From: Opisthocomus hoazin
Lineage: Eukaryota; Chordata; Aves; Opisthocomiformes; Opisthocomidae
DNA length: 64,000 bases
Direction of reading: 5' to 3'
Assembly (NCBI RefSeq): GCF_030867145.1
Contig: NC_134439.1
Location: 7,539,379-7,603,378, forward strand
The notes under the pieces: model-generated
What the model was told of the DNA's origin: nothing
Database searches by the model: none
What the model saw: only the letters and a program-made list of their open reading frames with translations
Shown: piece by piece, positions 1 to 22,260 of the stretch
Numbering within the stretch: position 1 is the stretch's first letter
How the letters are laid out: every line of letters begins with the position of its first letter
Translations under genes and position numbers: made by a program

Positions 1-1169
1 TGGGCCTCCGAGTCCTTCTTTTTCTGAGTCACGTCTTCCAATCTGCTCAGGAAAGAAGGAGGCTTTTTGGAGAGGGTTAGGGTGGGCACAAAAGAAGACC
101 CTTCATCTATCCCAGAGGAAAGAGAGGGGAGGCCCCAGTGCACTGGGTTGCCTGCTGTGCCCCGTCCCTTGGAGCTGAAGAAGATATTCCTGGCTACTCC
201 ACAGGCAACGGCCAACAGTCAGCCTTGCTGCATGTGTTTCCAGATGGGCCTGGAGCACTGGGCCCTGGAGCATGTTCTGTCAATGGGGAGCCCAACAAGT
301 GCTGTCCTGGAGTGAGGAGCCCATGGTGGCAGGAGGCCAAGGGATGATGTCAGCAGCCCCTCTGGCTCTTGGAGAAGGGACGTCCTCTAGGCCTGGATGG
401 AGCTGTGCTGGGGGAGAAGGCTCAAGCAGACAATGGCTCCAAAGGGTGGCAGAAGTGGGGATATGGAGAAAATAATACCTGGGGACAGCCCACAGCCTCA
501 TCCCCCCTTGCCTACCTTTCCATTGGCTGATCTCGGGTCCACAGCCAGCACGCACAAGCACAGGCACATGAGAGAGGTACCTCATACGGTCCTGGAGCGC
601 CTGGCAGGGCCCAGCTGCTGTCCAGACTGGCAGGGCTGAGGCAATTCACCAGTTAGTACTGGTATCGGCCACACAAATGGACTCACCACTCCCTGTGAAT
701 CCAACAGCCCCATGGGCCACTGCAGCTCCAGGACAGCATCCAGCGCCCAGAGACGCATTTCTGCTCTCTGGTCCTTGGTCTCCTCCAAGCCTGGGGCAGC
801 TTGCCTCGGCTTCTGAGGCGGCACCACTGCCAGGCTCCAGCTCTGATCCAGAAAGGCTCTGTGCAAGTGTAGTTACCCCCTTTGCGACATTAGCAATAGT
901 CTACCATAGAAAGAACAGAGATTCTGACAGATGACTGCATATTTTTGAGGAAAAAATCTCGTCCCCTCACCCAGCAAGCAGTTCCCGAGGACTACTGCAA
1001 GCATGGCCCTGATCACAAGCACATCTCCTGCTTGGTTCGCACCCTTTTCAGTGCTGCACAGCTGAAGATGCAATTTGGGGTGTGTGGAAAGGCTTTTAGC
1101 CTATGCGGAGATTGACACGTGCCTTGGGAGCTGTAAGAAGCTCGTCCTAGGAGCGAGGATGCTGGCTTC
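1..1169. repeat. Keratin intergenic spacer, downstream part
   Basis: This spacer follows the 3' end of a keratin gene. It matches 14800-15967 closely and the start of every short unit (for example 29347-30225 and 31385-31680) more loosely. The short units carry about 1.15 kb of extra sequence between the two matching parts, corresponding to a point near base 875 here. Open frames in it are short and on both strands. I see no gene. Confidence 0.8.
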
Positions 1170-1574
1170 GCAAGTAGGGATGCTCAGGCTGTATGGGATG
1201 TGGATTATTGCCAAAGACTGATGGATATTTTGAAGGACCCTCAGCTCAGTGATAGCCAGCAAGGAAGGGGAAGACGACTGTGCCAGTCAGCAGGCAACGC
1301 CAATGGTCTTCCTGGTGGCAAGGAAAGTCTGCCTCATTTTTGGCACACCGGTGGTGGGGTAGCAAATCGCCACAAAGGAAGCCTGACGAGGAAGAAATGC
1401 GGTAAGGTGTGGAGGTGCTTATTGCTCCACGCAGTGACAATAGGAGGTGGTTCCCATCAGGTTTAGAAGATACATGGAGAAGATAATGGCACCTGGGGCC
1501 ACGTGCACACCCAGGGAGGTCAGGAAGCCCAGCAGAAAGAGATCAGTTACAAGCGTCCTGCTCTCCTTTGCCAT
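1170..1574 (-). pseudogene. Olfactory receptor remnant, N-terminal part (L1 copy)
   Basis: Read on the minus strand from an ATG at 1574, this resembles the start of an olfactory receptor, a seven-helix odorant GPCR. The N-terminus MAKESRTLVTD is followed by FLLGF and a first helix containing GN. After these come a degenerate LHTPMYFFL-type motif (LHTLPHFFL) and, in another frame, ICYPTTGVPKM and TFLATRKTIGVAC, the helix 2 region and following loop. A shift in frame after the FFL motif and a stop after TIGVAC break it. This copy has also lost one base near 1441 compared with the second copy. Similarity fades near 1170, exactly where keratin spacer resumes, so only about the first third of a receptor (usually about 310 residues) is present. 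The receptor subfamily is not assigned. Confidence 0.78.
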
Positions 1575-4539
1575 GGCTCTAAATATTAGAAAGGAGGTTA
1601 TTGGAAAGTGGAAAATTATTCTGTCCGAAGGAAGACCCTAACTAATAAAAATGTCACCCAGAGATTGCAAATAATCACCTGCATGATCGTCCGCTCTAAG
1701 CTTTTCTGTCCCCACAATGCGCTCGCTTAGAACAAAAGTGAACATAAATGGATTATTAGGATGCTAGAAAAATGAAAAAGCACGGTGGGTTTTCTTCCAC
1801 TTCATCTACTCCCAACCTGCAGCTCTCGACAGTTTAAAGAAGACCATGGGAAATGTTTTTCAGATGTGATCCTTTTTGACCCTGAGCCATGCTATTCTCC
1901 CTTGGGTGCTTTTATTCTCGCCAAGAATAATTGCAATTACCCAGTTCTCAGAAAGGTGTCAGATGGGAGTCTTGTCCATGTTCTTTCTTGGCTGTGTTCC
2001 TGGTCCCGTCCTCCATCTTCTTGTTTCTTCCTTATGGTCATGTTTCTCAAAGGCTTCCTGTTGTCCTGTTTGGAGTAGCTTTGTCATGTCCTCTGGTGGG
2101 TTTGTCCTGGGCTGGCTGCCAGATGCCCACTCACTCTTTCTCAAGCCCCTCCTCAATAAGGCAGGAGGAGAAAATAAGGTGAAAAGACTCATGGGTCAAG
2201 ACAAAGACAGGGAGATCAAATACCAGGTACCCTCACCGGCAAAACAGACTCAGCCTGGGGAAGATGCATGTCAATTATTAACACTCAAAAACAAAATAAG
2301 ATGGTGAGAAACAAAGACAAAAAACAAGATCAAAAAAACCCAAAACCACTTTCAGGTATTTAGGTATGCTTTTCAACCATACTTGGCAATTTCTTTGACC
2401 TCTACCCTCAGCTCCAGGTAGCGAGTTAGACACTGGTCACCTTCAGGCAATCACCATCTCCCAGGTGCAGAGGAGGGTCTCCTGAAGGCACCGCTGGGCT
2501 TGAAAGCAGGCAATGCTCCCCACATTCTCCTCCTGCCTGCACTTCCAGGCACATTCACTGTGCATACTCATCATCTAGGCAGTGGGCACCTTCTTGCTGT
2601 CCCCAGAGACCAAGGCTTCACTTCTTCCTCACTGAAACTCGCAAGCAGTGGCACTGGGTGGTTCACCAGTGCACTGAATGGTTTGGCCGTGCCAGGGCAT
2701 GTCCATCTCCTCATCCTTCCTGGGATACCAGAGCCTTGTTTCAGGCACAGTCTGTCTGCCAACAGACCTCACACACCAACAGGATCTGCAGCCAAATAGC
2801 GGAGGGCAGATCAGTGCCACCAAGGTAGGAAAACTTGCCCTGTGCTAAGCTTTGCTGGCCAAAGCTGCTAGGCTGGGTGGAATGAAGGCAGAGCCGCTGA
2901 GGGAGTCCTCAGGGACCCAGGAGCCAGCCAAGATGACGGGGAATCAGAAGGAGAATGTCACGTTCTCAGAGAGGCTGCAGTTAGTTTCATCTCAGGGGGT
3001 TGGATGGAGCCTGGTGACATTCTGGTGGCATCCCTCAACAGCTCTCCCGCAAGTCCAGGCACTGCGTGAACCTGACGGTTTGATTGGGCTATTTTGCCCC
3101 TTGCTCAAGACCCTGGGTCTGATCTCAGACACAAAAGTCACACCAGCATGCTGTTAATGACAGTTTTCTTTGCTGCACAGGCTGCGGAGCCAGAGACCCA
3201 GCCTCACCACAACCGCAACACGCTACTGCTGGACAAGCTGAGGGAAATACTCCACAGGGAACACACACCCTTTTTCTGTGTGATGCTGCATGCGGTGGGT
3301 AACCATGTGGCCTCAGGAGAGGGACACCTGGTGCCGTCCTGCAGCTTGGCATCCCGCACATAGAAAAGCATCTGGGAGTTCTCCACAGACAGCACAGAGG
3401 AGAACCTCTCTGAGTTTACCCAAGGTTTCCATTTACCCATGCACAGCAGCATCGCAGAGGCCTGTGTCAGCACCTCCTCTTGCTCCAATCCTTGCTAGCC
3501 TCAAAGACGCATCTCACCAAAGTCTACAAGTCCCACCAGGACTGCCAGAAAATACAGGAGTGCGTCATGCTTTCCCTGTCACAGGTTGCCCACAGACTTC
3601 CGAGAAAGAGGGTGTTGGTGCTTGCAGGTTCCTATCTTCTCCTTCCTCTGCCACCTGAAAACAGCCTCCCAACCTCCCTGTGGGGAGTGGAGAAAATCTC
3701 TTCAGCTGCTGCTCCAGACAGACCTCCTCACATCCCCACGCTGCTGACCCAGGGAGGCTCTCTAGAGAGATGACAGACTGGTGCTCGTCCCAAGGAGAGG
3801 AATCAAGTTGCAATCTTTGCTACACCACAGTTTCCATAGGGCCAGGGCCAGGTTTTTCAGCACTTGAAGATTCTTACTTGAGCAGTGCGGCAGCAGCTGG
3901 GCTTTTAACAGCCCCCAAAGTCAGAAGGTGTTTGAGCATCCCCTCAGGCAGACACACCTGCTGGAGAAGTGCTGCCTCCAAACTCACCGTCACACGGTCA
4001 AAGGGGCCTTGGCCACCTCAGAATTTATGTAGTAGGCAAAGGAACAGATCATGCAGTCCACTGTCAGGCAACAGAACGCTGCCAAGAACCTTCCAGCATC
4101 TTGCGTCTCACGGTGATCTCAGTGAGCCCAACCATTCCCCATTTAGGGAGGTGTCCGTGACCATTTTCTCTGGCCGTGTGGTACCCAGCTGGGCACAAGG
4201 TCTGCATCCTGGGAGTGGAAAAGGCCCCCTTCAAGCCCACTCCTGTTCACCTCTGCTATAGGTACAGTCTGAACTGATAGAGGACCAGGCAGAGACAAAA
4301 CATCCCCAGGGTCTGGCTGGACCCAGGACTCTCTTCCCAAAGGCCTCTTTCCAGCTGTGACAAAGCTCTGCTCTTCAACACCTCATCTCTGCTTGGCAAA
4401 TTTCATAGCGATTGACTCCTGCATATGAACTTGACTTCCTCTGAGCCTCCCCAAAGTGTCTTTAGAGCAAGTGTCTGCTTCAGGCACTCGTTCAGTCTCC
4501 AGGACCTCACATCATCCACACTGACAGAATCGGACTCAT
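1575..4539. other. Long-unit-specific block, no gene recognised
   Basis: This 3 kb stretch occurs only in the long units (second copy about 16375-19339). I searched both strands and found no convincing gene. Frames of 60-220 residues exist but none shows a known family pattern. Near 3160-3180 a pyrimidine-rich stretch ends in CAG before an open frame, resembling a splice acceptor. On the minus strand at 3488-3330, GKWKPWVNSE and SVLSVENSQMLFYVRD faintly recall the end of a ubiquitin-specific protease catalytic domain. I do not call a gene from that. The block may be flanking DNA that travelled with the olfactory-receptor remnant. Confidence 0.5.
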
Positions 4540-4989
4540 ACACCCTGGGGAAAAAAAACAGGCCCCAGGCATGCTCCTGGTGACCTGCAGTGCTTGCACA
4601 GGGAGAGAATGCGGCAAATGCGCCCAGCAAAATGTTCCCAACAGCATTGTTAGTGTTGCAGTAGGGTCCAATACTCCCAGCAGAAGCACACCTGAGTGCA
4701 ACAAGGAGCAACCACCAGAGAGAGGTGGGAGGAGCAAGAGAAAAGGGTGTGGCATGTCCTCTCACATGGGAGTCCTTAGGCATGTGGACGAGAAGCAGGA
4801 GAGCGGTGCCTATTTCCTGACAACTTTGCCACAAACAAGCCCACAGGAATGACCCAGGTGCACATCACCTGCCCGCACAGGGTGCCACCAGCACTTGAGC
4901 TGAGTCTTCTGCCTGCAATGATGTCTTTCTGTCCTGGAAATTCAACAGACTCTCATTCTGGAAATTACAGAAGCCTTCCTACGGGGAAG
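4540..4989 (+). repeat. Keratin 5' flank shared by all units (upstream of gene 1)
   Basis: From about 4540 the sequence again matches the flank upstream of the other keratin genes (for example 13290-13629 and 27790-28236). It includes two CTGGAAATT motifs about 20 bp apart, near 4936 and 4959, just before the CACGTG at 4990. The first of these motifs is altered upstream of gene 2; the second is kept in all nine copies. No coding sequence is apparent. Confidence 0.75.
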
Positions 4990-5154
4990 CACGTGGCATC
5001 AGCCAGGAAATGAAAAGGCAGCAGTGCAGGAAGCCAGGACACAGCCCATGCCATTAGCTGAGACACTCGGCATTTGACGTGAACTTGTCTAGAAAATTAT
5101 TACTTCCTCAAAGGCTGCCTCTGGGCCTGGGGCAGTGCAGGACTACTATAAAAG
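4990..5154 (+). promoter_or_regulatory. Gene 1 proximal promoter
   Basis: It runs from an E-box CACGTG (4990-4995) to a TATAAAAG box (5147-5154). Transcription would start about 25-30 bp after the TATA box, near 5177. Exon 1 then ends at 5213 with CAG before a strong GTGAGT donor. The block between E-box and TATA is nearly identical in all nine copies, as expected for a co-regulated array. Confidence 0.8.
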
Positions 5155-5521
5155 GCAGCCCAACTCTCGGCTCTCTCATCCGCTTCTCTCGCCTCCTTCT
5201 CATAGGGAATCAGGTGAGTGTGAAGCCTCTTCTCCTTCAAGACCAGTTCTTTCCCCAATGTCTGTCTCAGCTGACAGGGGCTGTCCTAGCCCAGGCCTGG
5301 GAGCTGTTTCTCATGGGAGACGGAAGGGGAGAGAAGGTCTTCCCCTAAGAGAGCCTGGGATTTAGTTGTTGTTGTTTCTTTTGGGCTTTCAGCCGGACAG
5401 CCTGCACTGGGCCTGCAGGGGCCATGGCTTTCCCATGGTTGGGTGCAGTTCTACTTCTCATGTTTTTCTGTTTTCTGCTTCCCCCTTCCCTTTCTCCCAG
5501 GTGCCCCTCCAGCCCAGAGAC

Positions 5522-5818
5522 ATGTCCTGCTGCAACCCGTGCCTGCCATGCCAGCCCTGCGGCCCGACCCCGCTGGCCAACAGCTGCAATGAGCCCTGTG
5601 TCAGGCAGTGCCAGAGCTCCAATGTCGTCATCCAGCCCTCCGCCGTGGTGGTGACCCTGCCCGGACCCATCCTCAGCTCCTTCCCACAGAACACCGTTGT
5701 GGGATCCTCCACCTCTGCTGCTGTTGGCAGCATCCTCAGCTGTGATGGAGTGCCCATCTCCTCCGGAGGCTTTGACCTCTCCTGCATCACCAGCCGCTAC
5801 AGATGTCAACCCTGCTAA
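5522..5818 (+). CDS. Feather beta-keratin, gene 1 (98 aa)
   Basis: This is a structural corneous beta-protein of feather barb and barbule cells. It polymerises into beta-sheet filaments that are cross-linked through disulphides. The Cys-rich head (Cys 3, 4, 7, 10, 13, 22, 26, 30) carries the family signature [19 protein letters not shown]. The beta-sheet core at about residues 35-69 includes [16 protein letters not shown], and the Gly/Ser segment [11 protein letters not shown] follows. The tail ends SRYRCQPC. It lacks the three residues (Cys-Gly-Asn/Ser) found after SRY in the 101-residue copies, so it has 12 cysteines instead of 13. The start is the first ATG after the acceptor CCCAG at 5500. 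The non-coding exon 1 (about 5177-5213) is joined across a 287 bp intron (5214-5500). The frame is open upstream in the intron, but no ATG precedes 5522 in the spliced message. The protein is identical to that of gene 3. Confidence 0.97.
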
Positions 5819-6105
5819 AGCTGCTGGCAACTTCTTTGGACAAGAACCTCCAATAGCTCAGAACATGGTGCTGGACAGAAGATAAATCTTTAGGACATTG
5901 CGTTTAGAGTTTTGGGCCATTGTTTCCTTCTTCCACTCTCCTCTCTCCTTTGCTGTCACTGTCTCCTAACACCACCCTAGCAGGGACTTTTTTGCTCCCC
6001 TCTCCCTGCAGGGCAGGCAGATGGACACCCTGCAGGAGCTCCACTGCATCTCAGTGGCTGCCCCTGGTGCTCCCTATGAGCCAACTCCTCTTCATTTTCA
6101 GACTC

Positions 6106-6111
6106 ATTAAA
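6106..6111 (+). promoter_or_regulatory. Gene 1 poly(A) signal ATTAAA
   Basis: ATTAAA lies about 290 bp after the stop codon in the context GACTCATTAAAG, which is conserved in all nine copies. Cleavage is expected near 6130. Confidence 0.75.
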
Positions 6112-6130
6112 GTTGTGCTGCATCCAAACC

Positions 6131-6335
6131 TGGGCCGCTGAGTCCTCCTCTCCTCTGAGAGAAGTCTGAGTCCTTCCCTCTTCCAACGCAAGTCTTCCAG
6201 TCTGCTCAGGAAAAGAGTGGCTTTTTGGAGAGGATCAGGTTAGGCGCGAGTGAAGGCACTTCCTTGGTCCCAGAGGAAAAAAGGGTAGGACTCAGTGCAC
6301 TGGGTGCCCCGTGTCTTGCAGCTGAGGAAGATATG
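6131..6335. repeat. Short keratin spacer before the V-bearing block
   Basis: It aligns with the start of the other spacers (compare 1-200) up to the GAGGAAGATA stretch near 6335. Beyond that point the resemblance stops and the V-bearing block begins. The second copy is 20930-21134. Confidence 0.65.
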
Positions 6336-6807
6336 CTGTAAATACAGAGTGAGAGGCGCTGCTTCTCTCTGGCAGATGGACATCCCACACAACCCTCTTT
6401 ACCACAGTGTTCTCACTAGCCCTCAGGGTACTATGATCGACAGCTTGTCTGGGGAGGACACCTCCCAGAAGGGTGAGGTGATCATCTTATAAACTCAGGG
6501 CTGTTTCTGCCTGTGGGGGATCGGGCTCGTTAGGAGTTGCAGTGCAAAATATTTGGGGCTGGTGCAAGACATGGGATGTTTTGGAGAAGGAGCAGAGACA
6601 AGAAAAGGGCAGGATCAAGGCTGTGGGGGAACGGGCTGCAGGGCCTCGACGGGTCCGATGCCAGTGCCGAGCGGCGGGGCCCGGCGGGGCGAAGCGGGGC
6701 CGGGCGGCGCCAGGCGGAACCGGCGGGCGGAGCGGCAGCGCCCCCTGGCGGGCCCGGCCGGGGCTGCCCCCCCGCCCCCGACACACACGCCCGGCCCCGC
6801 CCGTGCC
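6336..6807. other. V-block left part with GC-rich island
   Basis: The first 300 bp is ordinary sequence without a recognised gene. From about 6640 the DNA becomes very GC- and CpG-rich and stays so into the V exon. Long open frames on both strands here come from base composition. The second copy is 21135-21606. Confidence 0.55.
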
Positions 6808-6846
6808 GGTTCGTGCCCGGCCGCAGCCCCGGCTCCTCTCCCCGTG
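6808..6846 (-). promoter_or_regulatory. 23-bp-spacer recombination signal (RSS) of the V segment, L1
   Basis: Reading the minus strand after TGC GCC GTG GGA GA comes a heptamer CACGGGG (6840-6846), then exactly 23 bp, then a nonamer GCACGAACC (6808-6816). Against the consensus the heptamer matches 5 of 7 with CAC kept, and the nonamer matches 6 of 9 with the AACC end kept. A 23-bp spacer is what TCR alpha and delta V segments carry. The mismatches suggest a weak signal. Confidence 0.68.
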
Positions 6847-7461
6847 TCTCCCACGGCGCAGTAATACACCGCCGCGTCCCCGCGCCGGGGCCGGGCGAGC
6901 CACAGGGCGCTGGACCGGCGGTCTGCCGCCACCGACAGCCGCCCCGGAGGGGCCGGCACATCCTTGGACCCTTTGTGAACAAGTGTGATCAACGCGGGGC
7001 CTCGGCCCGGTAGCTGGCGGAACCAGTAGATGTAGTCGGTAGACTTGATATTGGCGTGTGAGCAGTTGATGCTGATGCCGGTGCCCTCGGTGGTCTCTGC
7101 CGATGGCTCCTGCTGCACCTGGGCTCCTCTCACAGCTGCTGCTGGAAAGCAGAAGGAAAGAACAAAGATTGTCAAGATCGCCCAGTTCTGATGGCTCATT
7201 ACCAGACAAAGAGTAAAGAGCAGTGGCAGAGCCAGCGGACAGGAAGAGATGGGAAAATGTGCCTGTGATGGAGAGTGATCCTGGTGTGAGTACGTGGTGT
7301 GTGGAGTGATGGGAGAACAGTGGGAGCGAGTCTGAAATTCAGGCATGCAGATATTAGATGAAAGTCAGGTCCATGAATGGATGGAGAGAGCAAGAGTAGG
7401 GAGAGAGGTTCTTACCGTGAACAACAGCTAAAATCAGTGCAGTAATAATGACTTCACGCAC
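6847..7461 (-). CDS. T-cell receptor alpha/delta-type V segment, leader plus V exon (L1 copy)
   Basis: It encodes a variable immunoglobulin domain that could be joined to D/J by RAG. The V exon is 6847-7141. It begins after a CTTTCCAG acceptor, with AQVQQEPSAETTEGTG, the first conserved Cys in ISINCSH, the core Trp in YWFRQLPGRGP, then DRRSSALWLARPRRGDAAVYYCAV with the second Cys, and an RSS directly after. The frame is uninterrupted. An upstream leader exon (7416-7461, - strand) reads REVIITALILAVVHG and ends at a good GTAAGA donor. The 274 bp phase-1 intron fits TCR V genes and keeps the frame. The leader begins with GTG where ATG is expected, and the nearby ATG (7480) is in another frame that soon stops. 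The segment may therefore be untranslatable but otherwise intact. TRAV versus TRDV cannot be settled from sequence alone. Confidence 0.85.
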
Positions 7462-8272
7462 AGGGAAAAGAGACAGCACATGGAAATATAGGTGTACAGG
7501 CAAGCAGGGTCATAGCGACAGAGGTGGTAGAGAAATGGGGAGAATGGGAAGAGGAGACTCGGAGGGCTTGGAAAGGGGGAGGAGAGCTGGCAGAGGGGCA
7601 GGGACGGGGAAAGACACCCCGAAGATGGAGAGGGAAGAGCTCGTGCTGGGCTGCCTGGGGAGCAGCCCGGGCACAGCCCCGGCCCCCGCCCACCGCCGCC
7701 AGCCCCGCGCACCCAGCAGCACCGCGGCCAGCCCCGCCAGCCCCGCGCCCCGGCACCGCCGCATCCCGCCGCTCCGCCGCTCCGCCGCCCGCGCCTCGCT
7801 GCCCCCCGCCAGCCCCGGCTCTCTGCTCCGCCCGCGCCGCCTCCTCTCCGCCGCCTCCTCCCCTCGCCGCCGCCGCCAGCTCCGCCCCGGGGCTCAGCCC
7901 GGCGCCGGCGCCGCTCGGGCTCTCGCCCGGCCTCGCAGCGCTCGCTGGCTCTGCCCGGCCACGACTTGGTCTCCTGGGAAATGGACTCTCGCCGTCCGCC
8001 AGCGAGAATCAGCCTGCACAGAGCCAGCTGCAGTTCGGGCAGCGGCAGGGCCTTGACCCAGGAGCTGGACCGGCTTCCCCGAGCTGTGCCTGAGCTCAGG
8101 GGCTGGAAGCAGCAGCCACTGATTCCCTGCAGGTGGCAGTGAGGAGCCCGAGAGCCTTCAGCTGCCTGCGTGTGGCCCCAGCACAATGTCTAAAAGTTGT
8201 GTTGTGGTAAATGGGGTGTGAGGACAAATGCGCCCATGGGTGTGCAGACATCAGGGAGGGCGGGGGAAAGAA
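7462..8272. other. Second GC-rich island and unassigned DNA beside the V segment
   Basis: Between about 7640 and 7960 the sequence is very GC- and CpG-rich, like a CpG-island promoter. On the minus strand an ATG at 7764 opens a frame starting MRRCRGAGLAGLAAVLLGAR, which looks like a signal peptide. No recognisable domain follows, and the composition alone could produce it. I do not call a gene. The second copy is about 22261-23063. Confidence 0.45.
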
Positions 8273-8935
8273 GTCAGAATCACAGAATCAGACTGTAGGT
8301 GTGAAGGGACCTCCAGGGGTCATCTCCCCCTGGTTCAGAATAGATCCCATTTGATCAGATTGCCCGAAGTCACATTCAGTCCAGCCTTGAACACCTCTCA
8401 GGGTGGAGATTGCACAGCCTCGATGGGAAACAGATTCCTGTTCTCATTGGTTGTGTTTAGCCTGTTGCTTGTGTAGAATTCCCCATGTTTCAGCAGCTGT
8501 TCCTCGCCTCTACTCCTGTCGCAGAGTACTCCCACAGCCTAGTCCATCTTCTCGGTTTTCTCTGGACAGGTTGTTCGTGGACCTGCTGGGAACAACTTGT
8601 CTAATGGAGATCAGTGCGCCGTCTGTTCTCTGTCTGTGGCTGGGTGTCATCTCCAAACTTGCAGGAAGTGCCGTCCTTCCCATTAAACATGGTGTTTATG
8701 AAAACATAAAAGACTGTTGGTCCTACTGCTGATCCCTGAGGCACCCCACTGGTAAGTGTCTTGGGCTTTGCACCACTTGGCACAACTCTTTGAGCCTGGT
8801 AGTCCAGCCAGTTTTCCAGCCACCTTAGCATCCTCTTAGTGAACCCATTCATCTCCAATTTGGTCATAAAGGAAGTTCGAGGGAGGCTGTCAAAGGCACT
8901 GCTAACCTCCAGGTACACACATCCGCTGCCCTTTG
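8273..8935 (-). mobile_element. CR1 LINE, 3' portion with reverse transcriptase fragment (L1 copy)
   Basis: The 3' end is marked by the AGAATCACAGAATCA repeat near 8277, typical of CR1 tails read in reverse. On the minus strand 8918-8601 encodes part of the reverse transcriptase: a SSAFDSLPRTSF segment (from the KAFD motif), then LENWLDYQAQRVV, TSGVPQGSAVGP, and FGDDT, the variant of the catalytic YADDT/FADDT box. The thumb region and ORF2 end are largely missing before the tail. Homology stops near 8935. The element is dead and can be read as a host-neutral insertion duplicated with the long unit. Confidence 0.85.
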
Positions 8936-9545
8936 CTTGTCCACAGTGCCCGTTACCTTATGAGAAACGAGTGAGGTTTGCCCTCAACTGCAGTAGACTC
9001 TGAGTTCAGCAGCAGCTCCATGGAGAATGGAAGCAGCCCTGGCCGAGCTCTCCCAGCAGAGGCCATGATGTCAGCAAAGGTCACTGACAGAGAGGGGGTA
9101 AGGCTGGCTGCCCTGTGTCCAAGCTGGACCTTAGCTCAGGCAGTCAAATATCTGGGAGAGGAGATGGGCTTAGAAAATCTATCCAGTGTGCACAGTCCTT
9201 GTCGGAAAGAAGGTCTATACTGAACACCCTGTGGGACAGCAGCAGGCTATGGAGGGTGTGGTCTCGAATCCAATTTCCTTCCCCTCCCAGGGGCAGTTGC
9301 TGGGCACCCAGACAAAGATTCCAATGTGGGGCATGAAGTTCCTGGGGACTGAAGACAAAAGCACACATCAGTTCTTTCGCTTTCCTGTGCAAGCCACAGG
9401 TTCTGTCCTTTCCCTCACAGCACAGTGACATCAGGCTTCGTGGTCCTTTCTTTCAGTACCTGTTTGGTGCAAAGTCTCAGCCCCTGCCTGATGCAGCACC
9501 AGGCCAGTGGGCTGCATGAGTACATTTGGAGTTGGGTCGATCAAA
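8936..9545. repeat. Keratin-spacer-like island between two CR1 pieces
   Basis: This stretch does not match CR1. Parts resemble keratin 5' flank on the same strand. The region 9000-9080 (with CTCTCCCAGCAGAGG and GTCAGCAAAGG) aligns with about 12476-12560. The region 9455-9525 (with TTTGGTGCAAAGTCTCAGCC) aligns with about 12690-12750. Divergence is much greater than between array units. The second copy is about 23731-24339. Confidence 0.5.
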
Positions 9546-11660
9546 GCCCCCTCCTTGGTGGTGAGAACAAGGTGCAGCATTGCACCACTCCTTGTGGGCT
9601 CCTCTATCACTTGGATGAGTAAGTTGTCCTCAATGCATTCCAGGAACCTCCTGGATTGCCTGTGCCCTGCTGTGTTGTCCCTCCAACAGATGTCGGGGTG
9701 ATTGCAGTCCCCCATGAGGACCAGGGCTTTTGAACGTGAGGCTTCTCCTATCTGCTTATAGAGGGCCTCATCTGCTTGCTCACCCTTGTCAGGTGGCCTG
9801 TAGCAGACTCCCACTGTAATGTCGCCTGTTCCTGCCCTGTCTTGAATCTTGACCCATAAGCTCTCCGTGGGCTCCTCATCCAATCCCAGGTGGAGCTCCA
9901 TGCAATCCAGCTGATCTTTGATATAGAGGGCGACACCCCCTCCTTGTTTCCCCTGCCTGTCTTTCCTAAAGAGCCTGTATCCTCCCATCCCAATAATTCT
10001 TTCATAGGAGCTGTCCCACCATGTCGCTGTGATGCCGATGATATCTTAGCCCCGCAGATGTGCGCGCATCTCTAGCTCCTTTTGTTTATTCCCCATGCTA
10101 TGTGCATTTGCATAAAGGCATTTGAGCTGAGCTCCCAATGAAGCTGCACCGTTGCTGATGCACAGCTCCCTGTTCCGTACCCTCACTGACACAGGAGAGT
10201 GAAGGTCCTTGCTAGCGCACCGTCCACTAACAGCTGAGTTGCCACCCCCAGCCTTTTCACTAGCCAGATTGGTTTTATTTCTTTCCCCCTTCAAATCTAG
10301 TTTAAAGCCCTATCAATGAGCTCTGCTAACTCCTGAGCTAGGATCCTCTTCCCCTTTTGTGACAGGTGTACCCCATCTGTTGCCAGCAGGCCTGGTGCCA
10401 TGTAAACTGATCCATGATCAACGAACCCCAAATTTTGCCTATGACACCAGGCTTGGAGCCAGGTATTGATCTGTTGACTCCTGCTGTTTCTTCCCCCATC
10501 TTCCCCTGCAACTGGAGAGGTAGAGGAGAACACTACTTGTGCTCCTGATCCCTTAACCTGTCACCCCAGAGCCCTGAAGTCCCTTTTGATTACCTGTGTG
10601 CATTTGTCCCTAACCTGGTCACTGCCAACCTCAAGAAAGAAGAGTAGTAATAGTCAGTGGGCCTGACCAGACCAGGGAGTTTCCTAGTGATATCTCTCAC
10701 CCAGGCCCCAGGGAGGCAGCAGAATTCCCTGTGGGCTGGGTCTAGTCGGCATATCGGGCCCTCTGTTCTTCTCAGAAGGGAGTCACCTATGACAATTACC
10801 CTTCTTTTTGTTTTCGTGGAGGCAGTCGTGATGCGTGGGGCTGACTGCCTAGCTCTGGGCAACCTCGTGCGCGGGCCTTCATCCACTCTGTCATTTGCCT
10901 GGCCCTCCGGTTCTAGAGCCTCATACCTATTGTGTAAGAGCACCTGGGGTGGAGAGGGAGGACAGGAGGGGATTCGCCTGCCGCCCCCAGCTAGGACCCA
11001 TTTCCATTCTCCTCTGTCTCTCATGTCCTCTCCTTCTGCCTTGTGGCGAGAGGGCAGGGGATCTTCTGCTTCTTGTGGAGCGTCCATCTTCTGCGCTTAT
11101 TTCGGGGATGGCAGGGCATGGCTCCACCAGTCTATTTCCCACTCGCACTCCCTGATGCTCCTTAACCTTTCTCCCTCCTCTTTGAGCTCTGCCACCAGGG
11201 TGAGCAGATCATCCACCCGGTCACAGCGCACACAGACGTACTGTCTGCTGCCCTCCAATACCAGTGACAGGCTCAGGCACTCCTTGTAGCCAGAGAACTG
11301 CACAGCTGCCTGTTTATGAGGGAGCTCTGAATGGGTCACCACATTCTGCCTGGTGACGGCTTTCAGCCAAATGGAGACCATAGCTCGGTGTCTCCTAGCT
11401 GAGCAAGCAATGACCACCAGTTGAATTTACCCGGGGAGCTGGCTGAGGCTCGGGGCCCTGCCTGCCTGCCCTGCCTGCGCGAACTGCTGCGCAAACTGCC
11501 GTGCCACACCTTGGCTGCTGTGCCATGCCCTGTTTGCCCGTCCTGTTCGCTTGCACTCCCCAGGGGCTGATTTTGCCAGGGGGAGGGTACAGCGGTCAGT
11601 CTGGACCCCGCACACGCTGAGTCAGGGCCGCCGCTTGTCAGGGCTCAGCACTTCCCGCTT
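9546..11660 (-). mobile_element. CR1 LINE, 5' portion: ORF1 and endonuclease (L1 copy)
   Basis: The minus strand reads in CR1 order. First, an ORF1 N-terminus (about 11417-11097) with CVRCDRVDDLLTLVAELKEE, a Cys pair plus coiled coil. Second, an ORF1 esterase-like domain (11087-10297) with VIVIGDSLLRR (GDSL-type nucleophile) and, at its end, TDGVHLSQKGKRILA with the catalytic Asp-x-x-His. Third, the start of ORF2 with CLYANAHSMGNKQKE and the AP-type endonuclease with [29 protein letters not shown] and [10 protein letters not shown]. Several stops and frame changes interrupt it. Homology ends near 9546, before the reverse transcriptase. The 5' end, in GC-rich leader sequence near 11.66 kb, is approximate. 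A CR1 piece with a 5' end but no 3' tail is unusual. Confidence 0.85.
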
Positions 11661-12528
11661 GGGGGGTGGGGGGGGAGAGGGGCACAATCTCTCTCTCCCG
11701 GTGCCTGTCTCAGCAGTTCTGCATCTAAGAAAAGGTTCCCCCGGGGTGATCCCTCGCTCCGGAGCCCTTCACCATGCGGTCATGATGGAGAGCAGCAGGC
11801 TGCAGATCACGTGAGAAGACTTCAGTTCTGGCAGTCAAGCCATATCTGGCAGATACATCCTGTGGATCTTCATCTATAGATTTCTTGCCATTCTCCTGGG
11901 CCCATGACTTGAGTCCACCCCAGACCTTACAGAATGTTCCACTAGCCCAGCAGATAACTGCTGATAACAGTCTTGAATAGTCAGTGCATTGCCGTGCTAA
12001 AGACACTATCATCGGATTCGAACATCTGTATTTCACATTATTCTCTCTGGACTCTTTGACCGCCCAGGGCACTTTCCCCAAAAATTCTGTCTGGCAGATC
12101 CCCAAGGGGACAAAAATCTTCTCTTATGAAGTGCAGGGTTACAGCTTTGTCTTCTGTTTTGCAAAGCCGCTGCAAACTCCAGACACGAGAGCTATCCCAG
12201 CTTTTCTCCAAAACCCCAACAAGATTATAGCTCTGCAAGAGTGCACAGACTTTTAGGTTGACAGTCAGTCTGCGTTCAGGATGAGGTCTCCTGATAGTAA
12301 TCGGGGTTCTGCAAAGTCCAGAGATCACCAGGTGTGTTCATAGAGATGAGGAAGGTCTCAGGTCAAGCTGGGAAGTCACCCACATGTCAGGGTCCAAAGT
12401 GGGATCAGTGGTGTCCATGTCCAGACACAGGCACAGATGTGTCACCACTGGAGCTGTAACTCCGGGTGGAGCCAAACACTCGAACTTCAGATTGAAAGCT
12501 GCTCCCATGGGAAGGGGAGTCAGTCCTG
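11661..12528. other. Unassigned block right of CR1
   Basis: It holds a G-rich run near 11660-11680, then about 800 bp that I cannot assign. Minus-strand frames (12105-11725, 126 residues) show no domain I recognise. The second long unit lacks about 255 bp of it (roughly 11993-12247 here), so the two long units are not identical in content. Confidence 0.5.
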
Positions 12529-14163: not shown

Positions 14164-14469
14164 ATGTCCTGCTGCAACCCATGCCTGCCATGCCAGCCCT
14201 GCGGCCCGACCCCGCTGGCCAACAGCTGCAATGAGCCCTGTTTCAGGCAGTGCCAGAGCTCCAATGTTGTCATCCAGCCCTCCGCCGTGGTGGTGACTCT
14301 GCCCGGACCCATCCTCAGCTCCTTCCCACAGAACACCGTTGTGGGATCCTCCACCTCTGCTGCTGTTGGCAGCATCCTCAGCTGTGATGGAGTGCCCATT
14401 TCCTCCGGAGGCTTTGACCTCTCCTGCATTACCAGCCGCTACTGTGGGAACAGATGTCAGCCCTGCTAA
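14164..14469 (+). CDS. Feather beta-keratin, gene 2 (101 aa)
   Basis: This is the full 101-residue form, with tail [11 protein letters not shown] and 13 cysteines. It differs from all other copies by Phe at residue 27 (EPCFRQC for EPCVRQC), a change inside the strongly conserved head signature. Exon 1 ends at 13852, the intron is 13853-14142, and the coding exon begins after the acceptor CCCAG. The ATG follows 21 bp of 5' leader in exon 2. It ends long unit L1 and is the only copy with this tail type (CGN...Q), so it stands apart from both the 98-residue pair and the short-unit genes. The frame is intact. Its altered TATA position may make it less active. Confidence 0.96.
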
Positions 14470-14780: not shown

Positions 14781-15969
14781 GTTGTGCTGCATCCAAGCCT
14801 GGGCCTCCGAGTCCTTCTTTTTCTGAGTCACGTCTTCCAATCTGCTCAGGAAAGAAGGAGGCTTTTTGGAGAGGGTTAGGGTGGGCACAAAAGAAGACCC
14901 TTCATCTATCCCAGAGGAAAGAGAGGGGAGGCCCCAGTGCACTGGGTTGCCTGCTGTGCCCCGTCCCTTGGAGCTGAAGAAGATATTCCTGGCTACTCCA
15001 CAGGCAACGGCCAACAGTCAGCCTTGCTGCATGTGTTTCCAGATGGGCCTGGAGCACTGGGCCCTGGAGCATGTTCTGTCAATGGGGAGCCCAACAAGTG
15101 CTGTCCTGGAGTGAGGAGCCCATGGTGGCAGGAGGCCAAGGGATGATGTCAGCAGCCCCTCTGGCTCTTGGAGAAGGGACGTCCTCTAGGCCTGGATGGA
15201 GCTGTGCTGGGGGAGAAGGCTCAAGCAGACAATGGCTCCAAAGGGTGGCAGAAGTGGGGATATGGAGAAAATAATACCTGGGGACAGCCCACAGCCTCAT
15301 CCCCCCTTGCCTACCTTTCCATTGGCTGATCTCAGGTCCACAGCCAGCACGCACAAGCACAGGCACATGAGAGAGGTACCTCATACGGTCCTGGAGCGCC
15401 TGGCAGGGCCCAGCTGCTGTCCAGACTGGCAGGGCTGAGGCAATTCACCAATTAGTACTGGTATCGGCCACACAAATGGACTCACCACTCCCTGTGAATC
15501 CAACAGCCCCATGGGCACTGCAGCTCCAGGACAGCATCCAGCGCCCAGAGACGCATTTCTGCTCTCTGGTCCTTGGTCTCCTCCAAGCCTGGGGCAGCTT
15601 GCCTCGGCTTCTGAGGCGGCACCACTGCCAGGCTCCAGCTCTGATCCAGAAAGGCTCTGTGCAAGTGCAGTTACCCCCTTTGCGACATTAGCAATAGTCT
15701 ACCATAGAAAGAACAGAGATTCTGACAGACGACTGCATATTTTTGAGGAAAAAATCTCGTCCCCTCACCCAGCAAGCAGTTCCCGAGGACTACTGCAAGC
15801 ATGGCCCTGATCACAAGCACATCTCCTGCTTGGTTCCCACCCTTTTCAGTGCTGCACAGCTGAAGATGCAATTTGGGGTGTGTGGAAAGGCTTTTAGCCT
15901 ATGCGGAGATTGACACGTGCCTTGGGAGCTGTAAGAAGCTCGTCCTAGGAGCGAGGATGCTGGCTTCGC

Positions 15970-16374
15970 AAGTAGGGATGCTCAGGCTGTATGGGATGTG
16001 GATTATTGCCAAAGACTGATGGATATTTTGAAGGACCCTCAGCTCAGTGATAGCCAGCAAGGAAGGGGAAGACGACTGTGCCAGTCAGCAGGCAACGCCA
16101 ATGGTCTTCCTGGTGGCAAGGAAAGTCTGCCTCATTTTTGGCACACCGGTGGTGGGGTAGCAAATCGCCACAAAGGAAGCCTGACGAGGAAGAAATGCGG
16201 TAAGGTGTGGAGGTACTTATTGCTCCACGCAGTGACAATGAGGAGGTGGTTCCCCATCAGGGTTAGAAGATACATGGAGAAGATAATGGCACCTGGGGTC
16301 ACGTGCACACCCAGGGAGGTCAGGAAGCCCAGCAGAAAGAGATCAGTTACAAGCGTCCTGCTCTCCTTTGCCAT
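15970..16374 (-). pseudogene. Olfactory receptor remnant, N-terminal part (L2 copy)
   Basis: This is the better preserved copy. From the ATG at 16374 an 80-codon frame runs through FLLGF, the helix 1 stretch MYLLTLMGNHLLIVTAW and the LHTLPHFFL motif. It then loses the family frame, and ICYPTTGVPKM continues in another frame. A stop follows TIGVAC. Weak resemblance to the LLAVMALDRYLAICHPLHY region (here LLAIT and SLAIIHIPYSL) can be followed to about 15970, where keratin spacer begins. It is certainly not functional. It lies on the same strand as the V segment. Confidence 0.8.
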
Positions 16375-19339
16375 GGCTCTAAATATTAGAAAGGAGGTTA
16401 TTGGAAAGTGGAAAATTATTCTGTCCGAAGGAAGACCCTAACTAATAAAAATGTCACCCAGAGATTGCAAATAATCACCTGCATGATCGTCCGCTCTAAG
16501 CTTTTCTGTCCCCACAATGCGCTCGCTTAGAACAAAAGTGAACATAAATGGATTATTAGGATGCTAGAAAAATGAAAAAGCACGGTGGGTTTTCTTCCAC
16601 TTCATCTACTCCCAACCTGCAGCTCTCGACAGTTTAAAGAAGACCATGGGAAATGTTTTTCAGATGTGATCCTTTTTGACCCTGAGCCATGCTATTCTCC
16701 CTTGGGTGCTTTTATTCTCGCCAAGAATAATTGCAATTACCCAGTTCTCAGAAAGGTGTCAGATGGGAGTCTTGTCCATGTTCTTTCTTGGCTGTGCTCC
16801 TGGTCCCGTCCTCCATCTTCTTGTTTCTTCCTTATGGTCATGTTTCTCAAAGGCTTCCTGTTGTCCTGTTTGGAGTAGCTTTGTCATGTCCTCTGGTGGG
16901 TTTGTCCTGGGCTGGCTGCCAGACGCCCACTCACTCTTTCTCAAGCCCCTCCTCAATAAGGCAGGAGGAGAAAATAAGGTGAAAAGACTCATGGGTCAAG
17001 ACAAAGACAGGGAGATCAAATACCAGGTACCCTCACCGGCAAAACAGACTCAGCCTGGGGAAGATGCATGTCAACTATTAACACTCAAAAACAAAATAAG
17101 ATGGTGAGAAACAAAGACAAAAAACAAGATCAAAAAAACCCAAAACCACTTTCAGGTATTTAGGTATGCTTTTCAACCATACTTGGCAATTTCTTTGACC
17201 TCTACCCTCAGCTCCAGGTAGCGAGTTAGACACTGGTCACCTTCAGGCAATCACCATCTCCCAGGTGCAGAGGAGGGTCTCCTGAAGGCACCGCTGGGCT
17301 TGAAAGCAGGCAATGCTCCCCACATTCTCCTCCTGCCTGCACTTCCAGGCACATTCACTGTGCATACTCATCATCTAGGCAGTGGGCACCTTCTTGCTGT
17401 CCCCAGAGACCAAGGCTTCACTTCTTCCTCACTGAAACTCGCAAGCAGTGGCACTGGGTGGTTCACCAGTGCACTGAATGGTTTGGCCGTGCCAGGGCAT
17501 GTCCATCTCCTCATCCTTCCTGGGATACCAGAGCCTTGTTTCAGGCACAGTCTGTCTGCCAACAGACCTCACACACCAACAGGATCTGCAGCCAAATAGC
17601 GGAGGGCAGATCAGTGCCACCAAGGTAGGAAAACTTGCCCTGTGCTAAGCTTTGCTGGCCAAAGCTGCTAGGCTGGGTGGAATGAAGGCAGAGCCGCTGA
17701 GGGAGTCCTCAGGGACCCAGGAGCCAGCCAAGATGACGGGGAATCAGAAGGAGGATGTCACGTTCTCAGAGAGGCTGCAGTTAGTTTCATCTCAGGGGGT
17801 TGGATGGAGCCTGGTGACATTCTGGTGGCATCCCTCAACAGCTCTCCCGCAAGTCCAGGCACTGCGTGAACCTGACGGTTTGATTGGGCTATTTTGCCCC
17901 TTGCTCAAGACCCTGGGTCTGATCTCAGACACAAAAGTCACACCAGCATGCTGTTAATGACAGTTTTCTTTGCTGCACAGGCTGCGGAGCCAGAGACCCA
18001 GCCTCACCACAACCGCAACACGCTACTGCTGGACAAGCTGAGGGAAATACTCCACAGGGAACACACACCCTTTTTCTGTGTGATGCTGCATGCGGTGGGT
18101 AACCATGTGGCCTCAGGAGAGGGACACCTGGTGCCGTCCTGCAGCTTGGCATCCCGCACATAGAAAAGCATCTGGGAGTTCTCCACAGACAGCACAGAGG
18201 AGAACCTCTCTGAGTTTACCCAAGGTTTCCATTTACCCATGCACAGCAGCATCGCAGAGGCCTGTGTCAGCACCTCCTCTTGCTCCAATCCTTGCTAGCC
18301 TCAAAGACGCATCTCACCAAAGTCTACAAGTCCCACCAGGACTGCCAGAAAATACAGGAGTGCGTCATGCTTTCCCTGTCACAGGTTGCCCACAGACTTC
18401 CGAGAAAGAGGGTGTTGGTGCTTGCAGGTTCCTATCTTCTCCTTCCTCTGCCACCTGAAAACAGCCTCCCAACCTCCCTGTGGGGAGTGGAGAAAATCTC
18501 TTCAGCTGCTGCTCCAACAGACCTCCTCACATCCCCACGCTGCTGACCCAGGGAGGCTCTCTAGAGAGATGACAGACTGGTGCTCGTCCCAAGGAGAGGA
18601 ATCAAGTTGCAATCTTTGCTACACCACAGTTTCCATAGGGCCAGGGCCAGGTTTTTCAGCACTTGAAGATTCTTACTTGAGCAGTGCGGCAGCAGCTGGG
18701 CTTTTAACAGCCCCCAAAGTCAGAAGGTGTTTGAGCATCCCCTCAGGCAGACACACCTGCTGGAGAAGTGCTGCCTCCAAACTCACCGTCACACGGTCAA
18801 AGGGGCCTTGGCCACCTCAGAATTTATGTAGTAGGCAAAGGAACAGATCATGCAGTCCACTGTCAGGCAACAGAACGCTGCCAAGAACCTTCCAGCATCT
18901 TGCGTCTCACGGTGATCTCAGTGAGCCCAACCATTCCCCATTTAGGGAGGTGTCCGTGACCATTTTCTCTGGCCGTGTGGTACCCAGCTGGGCACAAGGT
19001 CTGCATCCTGGGAGTGGAAAAGGCCCCCTTCAAGCCCACTCCTGTTCACCTCTGCTATAGGTACAGTCTGAACTGATAGAGGACCAGGCAGAGACAAAAC
19101 ATCCCCAGGGTCTGGCTGGACCCAGGACTCTCTTCCCAAAGGCCTCTTTCCAGCTGTGACAAAGCTCTGCTCTTCAACACCTCATCTCTGCTTGGCAAAT
19201 TTCATAGCGATTGACTCCTGCATATGAACTTGACTTCCTCTGAGCCTCCCCAAAGTGTCTTTAGAGCAAGTGTCTGCTTCAGGCACTCGTTCAGTCTCCA
19301 GGACCTCACATCATCCACACTGACAGAATCGGACTCATA
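16375..19339. other. Long-unit-specific block, second copy
   Basis: This is the near-identical counterpart of 1575-4539, differing by a few substitutions and single-base indels (for example near 18515). Nothing recognisable as a gene. Confidence 0.5.
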
Positions 19340-19788
19340 CACCCTGGGGAAAAAAAACAGGCCCCAGGCATGCTCCTGGTGACCTGCAGTGCTTACACAG
19401 GGAGAGAATGCGGCAAATGCGCCCAGCAAAATGTTCCCAACAGCATTGTGAGTGTTGCAGTAGGGTCCAATACTCCCAGCAGAAGCACACCTGAGTGCAA
19501 CAAGGAGCAACCACCAGAGAGAGGTGGGAGGAGCAAGAGAAAAGGGTGTGGCATGTCCTCTCACATGGGAGTCCTTAGGCATGTGGACCAGAAGCAGGAG
19601 AGCGATGCCTATTTCCTGACAGCTTTGCCACAAACAAGCCCACAGGAATGACCCAGGTGCACATCACCTGCCCGCACAGGGTGCCACCAGCACTTGAGCT
19701 GAGTCTTCTGCCTGCAATGATGTCTTTCTGTCCTGGAAATTCAACAGACTCTCATTCTGGAAATTACAGAAGCCTTCCTACGGGGAAG

Positions 19789-19953
19789 CACGTGGCATCA
19801 GCCAGGAAATGAAAAGGCAGCAGTGCAGGAAACCAGGACACAGCCCATGCCATTAGCTGAGACACTTTGCGTTTGACGTGAACTTGTCTAGAAAATTATT
19901 ACTTCCCCAAAGGCTGCCTCTGGGCCTGGGGCAGTGCAGGACTACTATAAAAG
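19789..19953 (+). promoter_or_regulatory. Gene 3 proximal promoter
   Basis: CACGTG lies at 19789-19794 and TATAAAAG at 19946-19953. Exon 1 ends at 20012 before GTGAGT. Confidence 0.8.
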
Positions 19954-20320
19954 GCAGCCCAACTCTCGGCTCTCTCATCCGCTTCGCTCGCCTCCTTCTC
20001 ATAGGGAATCAGGTGAGTGTGAAGCCTCTTCTCCTTCAAGACCAGTTCTTTCCTCAATGTCTGTCTCAGCTGACAGGGGCTGTCCTAGCCCAGGCCTGGG
20101 AGCTGTTTCTCATGGGAGAGGGAAAGGGAGAGAAGGTTTTCCCCTGAGAGAGCCTGGGGCTTAGCTGTTGTTGTTTCTTTTGGGCTTTCAGCCGGACAGC
20201 CTGCACTGGGCCTGCAGGGGCCATGGCTTTCCCATGGTTGGGTGCAGTTCTACTTCTCATGTTTTTCTGTTTTCTGCTTCCCCCTTCCCTTTCTCCCAGG
20301 TGCCCCTCCAGCCCAGAGAC

Positions 20321-20617
20321 ATGTCCTGCTGCAACCCGTGCCTGCCATGCCAGCCCTGCGGCCCGACCCCGCTGGCCAACAGCTGCAATGAGCCCTGTGT
20401 CAGGCAGTGCCAGAGCTCCAATGTCGTCATCCAGCCCTCCGCCGTGGTGGTGACCCTGCCCGGACCCATCCTCAGCTCCTTCCCACAGAACACCGTTGTG
20501 GGATCCTCCACCTCTGCTGCTGTTGGCAGCATCCTCAGCTGTGATGGAGTGCCCATCTCCTCCGGAGGCTTTGACCTCTCCTGCATCACCAGCCGCTACA
20601 GATGTCAACCCTGCTAA
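20321..20617 (+). CDS. Feather beta-keratin, gene 3 (98 aa)
   Basis: This is the L2 counterpart of gene 1, with an identical predicted protein including the shortened tail SRYRCQPC (no Cys-Gly-Asn/Ser). The intron is 20013-20299 (287 bp, the same length as in gene 1), and the acceptor CCCAG precedes exon 2. The only coding ATG in the spliced message is at 20321. The shared 9 bp absence shows that the deletion predates the duplication of the long unit. Confidence 0.97.
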
Positions 20618-20904
20618 AGCTGCTGGCAACTTCTTTGGACAAGAACCTCCAATAGCTCAGAACATGGTGCTGGACAGAAGATAAATCTTTAGGACATTGC
20701 GTTTAGAGTTTTGGGCCATTGTTTCCTTCTTCCACTCTCCTCTCTCCTTTGCTGTCACTGTCTCCTAACACCACCCTAGCAGGGACTTTTTTGCTCCCCT
20801 CTCCCTGCAGGGCAGGCAGATGGACACCCTGCAGGAGCTCCACTGCATCTCAGTGGCTGCCCCTGGTGCTCCCTATGAGCCAACTCCTCTTCATTTTCAG
20901 ACTC

Positions 20905-20910
20905 ATTAAA
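20905..20910 (+). promoter_or_regulatory. Gene 3 poly(A) signal ATTAAA
   Basis: ATTAAA in the conserved GACTCATTAAAG context, about 20 bp before the spacer. Confidence 0.75.
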
Positions 20911-21606
20911 GTTGTGCTGCATCCAAACCTGGGCCGCTGAGTCCTCCTCTCCTCTGAGAGAAGTCTGAGTCCTTCCCTCTTCCAACGCAAGTCTTCCAGT
21001 CTGCTCAGGAAAAGAGTGGCTTTTTGGAGAGGATCAGGTTAGGTGCAAGTGAAGGCACTTCCTTGGTCCCAGAGGAAAAAAGGGTAGGACTCAGTGCACT
21101 GGGTGCCCCGTGTCTTGCAGCTGAGGAAGATATGCTGTAAATACAGAGTGAGAGGCGCTGCTTCTCTCTGGCAGATGGACATCCCACACAACCCTCTTTA
21201 CCACAGTCTTCTCACTAGCCCTCAGGGTACTATGATCGACAGCTTGTCTGGGGAGGACACCTCCCAGAAGGGTGAGGTGATCATCTTATAAACTCAGGGC
21301 TGTTTCTGCCTGTGGGGGATCGGGCTCGTTAGGAGTTGCAGTGCAAAATATTTGGGGCTGGTGCAAGACATGGGATGTTTTGGAGAAGGAGCAGAGACAA
21401 GAAAAGGGCAGGATCAAGGCTGTGGGGGAACGGGCTGCAGGGCCTCGACGGGTCCGATGCCAGTGCCGAGCGGCGGGGCCCGGCGGGGCGAAGCGGGGCC
21501 GGGCGGCGCCAGGCGGAACCGGCGGGCGGAGCGGCAGCGCCCCCTGGCGGGCCCGGCCGGGGCTGCCCCCCCGCCCCCGACACACACGCCCGGCCCCGCC
21601 CGTGCC

Positions 21607-21645
21607 GGTTCGTGCCCGGCCGCAGCCCCGGCTCCTCTCCCCGTG
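21607..21645 (-). promoter_or_regulatory. 23-bp-spacer RSS of the V segment, L2
   Basis: Heptamer CACGGGG (21639-21645) and nonamer GCACGAACC (21607-21615, minus strand) are separated by 23 bp, identical to the L1 copy. Confidence 0.66.
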
Positions 21646-22260
21646 TCTCCCACGGCGCAGTAATACACCGCCGCGTCCCCGCGCCGGGGCCGGGCGAGCC
21701 ACAGGGCGCTGGACCGGCGGTCTGCCGCCACCGACAGCCGCCCCGGAGGGGCCGGAACATCCTTGGACCCTTTGTGAACAAGTGTGATCAACGCGGGGCC
21801 TCGGCCCGGCAGCTGGCGGAACCAGTAGATGTAGTCGGTAGACTTGATATTGGGGTGTGAGCAGTTGATGCTGATGCCGGTGCCCTCGGTGGTCTCTGCC
21901 GATGGCTCCTGCTGCACCTGGGCTCCTCTCACAGCTGCTGCTGGAAAGCAGAAGGAAAGAACAAAGATTGTCAAGATCGCCCAGTTCTGATGGCTCATTA
22001 CCAGACAAAGAGTAAAGAGCAGTGGCAGAGCCAGCGGACAGGAAGAGATGGGAAAATGTGCCTGTGATGGAGAGTGATCCTGGTGTGAGTACGTGGTGTG
22101 TGGAGTGATGGGAGAACAGTGGGAGCGAGTTTGAAATTCAGGCATGCAGATATTAGATGAAAGTCAGGTCCATGAATGGATGGAGAGAGCAAGAGTAGGG
22201 AGAGAGGTTCTTACCGTGAACAACAGCTAAAATCAGTGCAGGAATAATGACTTCACGCAC
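21646..22260 (-). CDS. T-cell receptor alpha/delta-type V segment, leader plus V exon (L2 copy)
   Basis: V exon 21646-21940, intron to 22214, leader exon 22215-22260. Both conserved cysteines, the core Trp and the DAAVYYCAV end are intact, as in the L1 copy. Coding differences include Pro for Ala in the first loop region (SHPNIKSTDY) and Pro for Thr in the leader (IIPALIL). The leader again begins with GTG instead of ATG, so that change predates the long-unit duplication. No stop or frame change is seen in the V exon. It may be an unexpressed V segment or one read from an unrecognised start. Confidence 0.84.

Follow-up and report, generated by a model that had tools for sequence, protein, structure and literature searches.

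The number of V genes in a T-cell receptor locus is usually discussed as a matter of selection on immunity. In the chicken, TRA/TRD lies on the reverse strand of chromosome 27, where it occupies ~970 kb (PMC10972964), and a peak on the same chromosome contains 19 genes of which most are feather-keratin-like (overlap region 1-1.4 Mb; PMC5427493). These two sources bear out a sequence-only reading of the DNA studied here, which had named chicken chromosome 27 as the site of both gene groups. A deletion on chromosome 27 of the blackcap lies within a TRA intron (PMC10693001). Within the chicken locus, the majority of TRAV1 genes are classed either as pseudogenes or, where their signals score low, as ORF, and TRAV2 accounts for >90% of alpha transcripts in spleen; the main text of the article does not mention keratin (PMC10972964). 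In the titles and abstract openings of the literature that we searched, mostly outside subscription journals, we found no description of V genes interleaved with keratins. Here, we analyzed a 64,000-base stretch of hoatzin (Opisthocomus hoazin) DNA, hereafter the window, which is probably where the TRA V region borders on a feather keratin array, on the equivalent of chicken chromosome 27, and which suggests that the two share this border on one small chromosome.

The first part of the window consists of two copies of a mixed stretch of 12 kb, to the right of which the sequence passes into 5.97-kb units with keratin genes only (Table 1). Keratins lie on the plus strand and V genes on the minus strand throughout. 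The keratin content of the 12-kb stretch is keratin a alone, keratin b being placed outside it. Two regions within the first 14.8 kb have no homology to the keratin unit (~1182-4517 and ~6335-12476) and each contains a V, hence V and keratin genes alternate. The two copies mismatch at 79 of 11,969 aligned bases (0.66% divergence), with 3 differences in the 347 bases of the leader and V exons and none in the 297 bases of keratin a. The V portion itself aligns across the copies at 99% (6841-7140 against 21640-21939) and exists in two copies only. The earlier proposal that an immune receptor V segment is being copied as part of the keratin array thus holds in that V was copied along with a keratin gene, and fails in that its two copies belong to the 12-kb stretch rather than to the 6-kb repeats. 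Beside V, in both copies of the stretch, are two open reading frames on the minus strand that are likely LINE in origin, judging from an endonuclease-reverse transcriptase domain (PF14529) in the one at 9431-9988, and which we take to be CR1. The first of these frames is shorter in copy 2 (24398-24769). Rfam models at their gathering thresholds gave zero matches in the window.

Table 1 Features of the window (positions are those of the 64,000-base stretch)
Feature	Positions	Strand	Remarks
Duplicated stretch, copy 1	1-11992		Keratin a, intact V, V relic and LINE-like ORFs
V relic, copy 1	3333-3560	minus	"LQFP" (tentatively TRAV3-like) type; leader-like and FR3 pieces
Keratin a, copy 1	5522-5818	plus	98 aa; between intact V and V relic; PF02422, E 2e-35
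23-spacer signal, copy 1	6808-6846	minus	Heptamer CACGGGG at 6840-6846, 23-bp spacer at 6817-6839, nonamer GCACGAACC at 6808-6816
V exon, copy 1	6847-7141	minus	TRAV1/QVQQ type; phase-1 join after 571-bp intron
Predicted L-PART1 leader exon, copy 1	7713-7764	minus	MRRCRGAGLAGLAAVLL plus 1 base; donor GT at 7711-7712
LINE-like ORFs	9431-9988 and 10590-11087	minus	Beside V, in both copies of the 12-kb stretch
Keratin b	14164-14469	plus	101 aa; between the two duplicated stretches
Duplicated stretch, copy 2	14800-26771		Repeats 1-11992 at a period of 14.8 kb
V relic, copy 2	18133-18360	minus	
Keratin a, copy 2	20321-20617	plus	
23-spacer signal, copy 2	21607-21645	minus	Identical to copy 1 by alignment
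V exon, copy 2	21646-21940	minus	Three codon differences and one amino-acid change from copy 1
Predicted L-PART1 leader exon, copy 2	22512-22563	minus	Identical to copy 1, 14,799 bases to the right
Keratin-only array	27053-64000		~5.97-kb units; six keratin genes on plus; no V found

A divergence of 0.66% is of the order of allelic differences, and it would suit an assembly artefact, in which the tandem copy represents two haplotypes placed end to end or the join between V and keratin is chimeric. We regard such an artefact as very unlikely, because ~12 kb into copy 2 the sequence meets a keratin unit that is only ~93% like that of copy 1, which the stacking of alleles would not yield, and because the V-keratin join is present in both copies. 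Nine open keratin frames are arranged in tandem units, the PF02422 domain having been scored on keratin a only, and keratin a is without three near-terminal residues (CGN or CGS) that the other seven window keratins possess. Stretches of the 5.97-kb array that are shifted against each other are 97-99% alike over tens of kilobases, and this near-identity suggests recent or ongoing homogenisation of the units. For P0122, a keratin that the window is listed as encoding, the longest contig measures 10,902,777 bases.

On the receptor side, the intact V exon was found as the sequence-only reading had described it, on the minus strand and with both cysteines, the core Trp and YYCAV, and it matches Pfam V-set at E 8.3e-9. 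The domain reads QVQQEPSAETTEGTGISINCSHANIKSTDYIYWFRQ...YYCAVG, and near its 5′ end it has the QVQQ motif of TRAV1 (PMC10972964). That reading had also assigned the segment to the T-cell receptors and expected its best matches among them, and the best solved structure is indeed 6lir_A, a Gallus gallus "TCR alpha chain" (E 1.6e-38, 133.8 bits), followed by a next match of 94.9 bits. A search of 5.8 billion proteins gave 351 matches, and among the 120 of these that were listed, most of those with a name are avian TVA4, TVAZ2 or TRAV and others are uncharacterised. Two of the 120 are labelled "Ig lambda chain V-I region WAH", which might point to a V from another receptor family (a second TRD locus, TRG or immunoglobulin). 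Such an origin is extremely improbable, given the bit scores of the chicken TCR alpha chain over the next structure and the TRAV1 motif at the start of the domain. In a tree of 109 V domains, built from 91 columns and with most other forks unresolved, both window copies and a hoatzin protein, P0052 (N306_14115), formed one group (SH-aLRT 99). Sequence comparison therefore supports an assignment to TCR alpha, with a V domain of the QVQQ/TRAV1 type of birds, and taken by itself the V gene seems an unexceptional member of a known family. P0052 equals V copy 2 in 71 of 71 shared columns. Its leader end, ILFFASSAVATSK, is unlike that of the window and its pieces occur in no frame of the window, so that either its gene model is faulty or it may represent an additional copy whose ends were exchanged.

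The leader of this gene probably lies further upstream than had been proposed. The sequence-only reading had given it a phase-1 leader intron, and the phase stands (571 bp), while the exon that it implied at 7413-7461 was rejected, since no Met is in frame between a stop codon and the donor in either copy. The leader exon of V copy 1 is likely the 52-base exon at 7713-7764, with a start codon and predicted splice sites, which would join the V exon in phase 1 to give MRRCRGAGLAGLAAVLLAAAVRGAQVQQ... This exon scored 35.4 bits, against a best of 20.4 in 50 shuffles, and its 17 residues are identical (17/17) to those of the TCR-alpha chains P0255 (Nyctibius), P0268 (Pelecanus) and P0280 (Phalacrocorax). 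The same leader type begins 18 of the 44 TRAC-list proteins of at least 250 aa, and all 18 continue into a QVQQ-like V; that chains of this make-up are found by the TRAC query is a further argument against another receptor family. Around the exon, at 7651-7950, GC reaches 0.85-0.86 with CpG at the expected rate, and a promoter may be situated in this GC-rich block. An unspliced frame is also open in both copies (minus strand, 6615-7346 in copy 1); it begins at an ATG upstream of a leader-like sequence and continues through the latter and the V exon to beyond the signal. Its leader peptide would be MSHQNWAILTIFVLSFCFPAAAVRGAQ, which we did not notice in the proteins retrieved from other birds. 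A single-exon, unspliced leader is a possible alternative because nearly all chicken TRAV1 genes have one (PMC10972964).

Directly after the coding end comes a recombination signal, where the sequence-only reading had placed CACGGGG, a 23-bp spacer and a nonamer. We confirmed all three parts in place, with 5 of 7 heptamer and 6 of 9 nonamer letters matching the textbook consensus; the coding end itself is GTG GGA GA and not GTG-AGA-GA as had been read. Sites as good, with CAC and an exact spacer of 23, number 13 in 127,922 positions on both strands, the two V copies being included by construction, and allowing spacers of 22-24 raises this number to 48. Taken alone the signal is weak, while its position directly 3′ of the V exon is unlikely by chance. 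Read through in one frame, the signal gives TRGEEPGLRPGTN, identical in protein P0045 of Bambusicola (partridge), and in another frame DTGRGAGAAAGHEP, identical in protein P0008 of Strix (owl); these two are the closest among the proteins that run past the signal, and other fowl differ (e.g., PREAKPGLRPGTN). By analogy with these birds and the chicken, a poor signal is apparently normal for the TRAV1 family, and the poor heptamer suggests that V would be used rarely, as is reported for chicken TRAV1.

A second V is present in the same duplicated stretch and on the same strand. It consists of a leader-like piece, LLYFLAVLVGLVDFGE, and a further piece, TQASAMLLCMGKWKPWVNSERFSSVLSVENSQMLFYVRDAKLQD, which resemble the V of the TCR-alpha chains P0257 (Apus) and P0312 (Falco). 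The first half or middle of the domain is missing, YYC is absent, and no complete V exon with both cysteines is left. This relic was detected by a profile of the two LQFP proteins (E 2.1e-14), and it scored 57.0 bits, against a best of 23.9 in 50 shuffles. Neither Pfam nor a profile built from the full set of 148 V domains picked it up, and its assignment rests on two relatives, P0257 and P0312. The label "TRAV3-like" is tentative because these two have LQFP and the chicken TRAV3 motif is LQYP (PMC10972964). As far as its sequence can be read, it is a broken V of another TCR-alpha family and not a usable gene. The relic does not figure in the sequence-only reading. Its place in the same stretch and on the same strand as the intact gene indicates a mixture of V and keratin genes and not one stray V.

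Further receptor segments were sought across the window. Profiles of the 148 V domains and of their sub-families, which families outside this protein set such as TRDV could escape, returned at significant scores only the two V copies and, with the profile of the two LQFP proteins, the two relics, and none within the 6-kb keratin repeats (27053-64000). A motif search for TRAJ found none at the threshold used (TTYGGNNNNGG preceded at 20-49 bases by GTG, and a 12-spacer signal agreeing with the consensus in 11 or more of 16 letters), and protein comparison found no TRAC. A window with V genes and no J or C found would be expected if these were orphons, that is, TRA V genes that were moved into a keratin array far from TRAJ, copied passively and never joined. 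The wrecked state of the second V and the degenerate signal of the first point the same way, as does the fast turnover of keratin arrays (6-kb units near-identical). However, passive copies of this kind do not readily explain why two V families are found on one strand of one stretch, or why frame, leader, splice sites and signal are intact in both copies of the first V, and a degenerate signal is typical of its family.

Evidence from other birds also bears on the orphons. As a proxy for linkage we compared the contig sizes printed per species in the keratin list (120 of 1354) and in the TRAC list (all 98); these sizes belong to protein clusters and the tallies were made by eye, hence the evidence for linkage is indirect. 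No protein named as hoatzin occurs among the 98 TRAC matches. TRAC and a feather keratin were on equal-sized contigs in 13 of the 18 species common to both lists, with 120 of 1354 keratins listed (Gallus gallus, Cyrtonyx montezumae (1.7 Mb), Pelecanus crispus, Spheniscus humboldti, Athene noctua, Phalacrocorax aristotelis, Indicator indicator, Strix uralensis, Anas platyrhynchos, Colius striatus, Hirundo rustica, Acridotheres tristis, and Geothlypis trichas). The sizes were unequal in the other five. Patagioenas fasciata monilis, Bombycilla garrulus and Phainopepla nitens are represented by pieces of <300 kb, and in Mycteria americana a 0.5-Mb piece stands against 8.6 Mb. In Falco biarmicus (P0144, P0164, P0318, P0319), the keratin contig of ~6.8 Mb and the TRAC contig of 113 Mb are both chromosome-sized, which makes this falcon a real counterexample to the linkage unless the clusters mix contigs. 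If keratin and TRAC are separated in falcons, these birds may offer a natural test of whether the linkage matters.

The same comparison for V itself, with 120 of 351 V matches and 120 of 1354 keratins listed, gave equal-sized contigs in one of eight species, the sandgrouse Pterocles burchelli, where V (P0047) and keratin (P0232) are each listed on a contig of 56,082 bases. This match of V and keratin outside the hoatzin is one more observation that an assembly artefact would leave unexplained. In the seven mismatched species (Columbina picui, Galbula dea, Caloenas nicobarica, Rostratula benghalensis, Phaetusa simplex, Colinus virginianus, and Spheniscus humboldti), the V pieces are ≤97 kb. The sequence-only reading had left two choices, an orphon or a keratin array that abuts a TCR locus. 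We favor the abutment because the duplicated stretch contains, on one strand, V genes of two families, together with the TRAC-keratin tally among the listed keratins, and we consider the orphons unlikely, that tally counting against them as well.

If the TRA V region does border on the keratin array here, the following course of events can be proposed. TRA V genes on the minus strand and keratin genes on the plus strand would alternate at the border, and an unequal exchange would have duplicated a mixed stretch of 12 kb at a period of 14.8 kb, so that a V gene was copied as a passenger with a keratin gene. Transcription would start from the GC-rich block around the leader, RAG would recombine the 23-spacer signal with that of a 12-spacer TRAJ, and splicing would connect the transcript to TRAC. 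Both V genes face left, and TRAJ and TRAC should therefore lie beyond the left end of the window, at lower coordinates, in which case joining would take place by deletion.

The unusual part of the window is the mixed stretch of V and keratin genes. A wider idea, which we put forward tentatively and hold to be possible rather than probable, is that many birds have one mixed array, made up of the feather keratins of chromosome 27 and the 5′ edge of the TRA V region, in which rapid turnover in keratin copy number carries V genes along, so that feather evolution would alter the repertoire of T-cell receptors as a side effect. If V and keratin genes share repeat units, growth and loss of the repertoire could partly follow selection on feathers or the instability of the keratin array. 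For those who annotate avian TRA loci, the keratin array is worth inspecting, and short-read assemblies may break there.

Several known systems can be compared with the window. The avian TCR-alpha chains P0255, P0268 and P0280 have the same 17 leader residues and a QVQQ V domain, and they are full V-J-C chains, whereas the window copy is germline only. The chicken TRAV1 family has the QVQQ motif in common with the window V, but its leader is a single exon in all but three genes (PMC10972964), and the window V probably has a leader of the spliced type. Orphon V genes, as a general concept, resemble the window in that a V gene stands among non-receptor genes, and differ in that indirect evidence from related birds points to linkage with TRA. 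A feather keratin array (PF02422; "feather keratin Cos1-2-like") resembles the window in its nine open keratin genes in tandem units, from which the first 26.8 kb depart by having V genes and LINE-like ORFs between the keratins.
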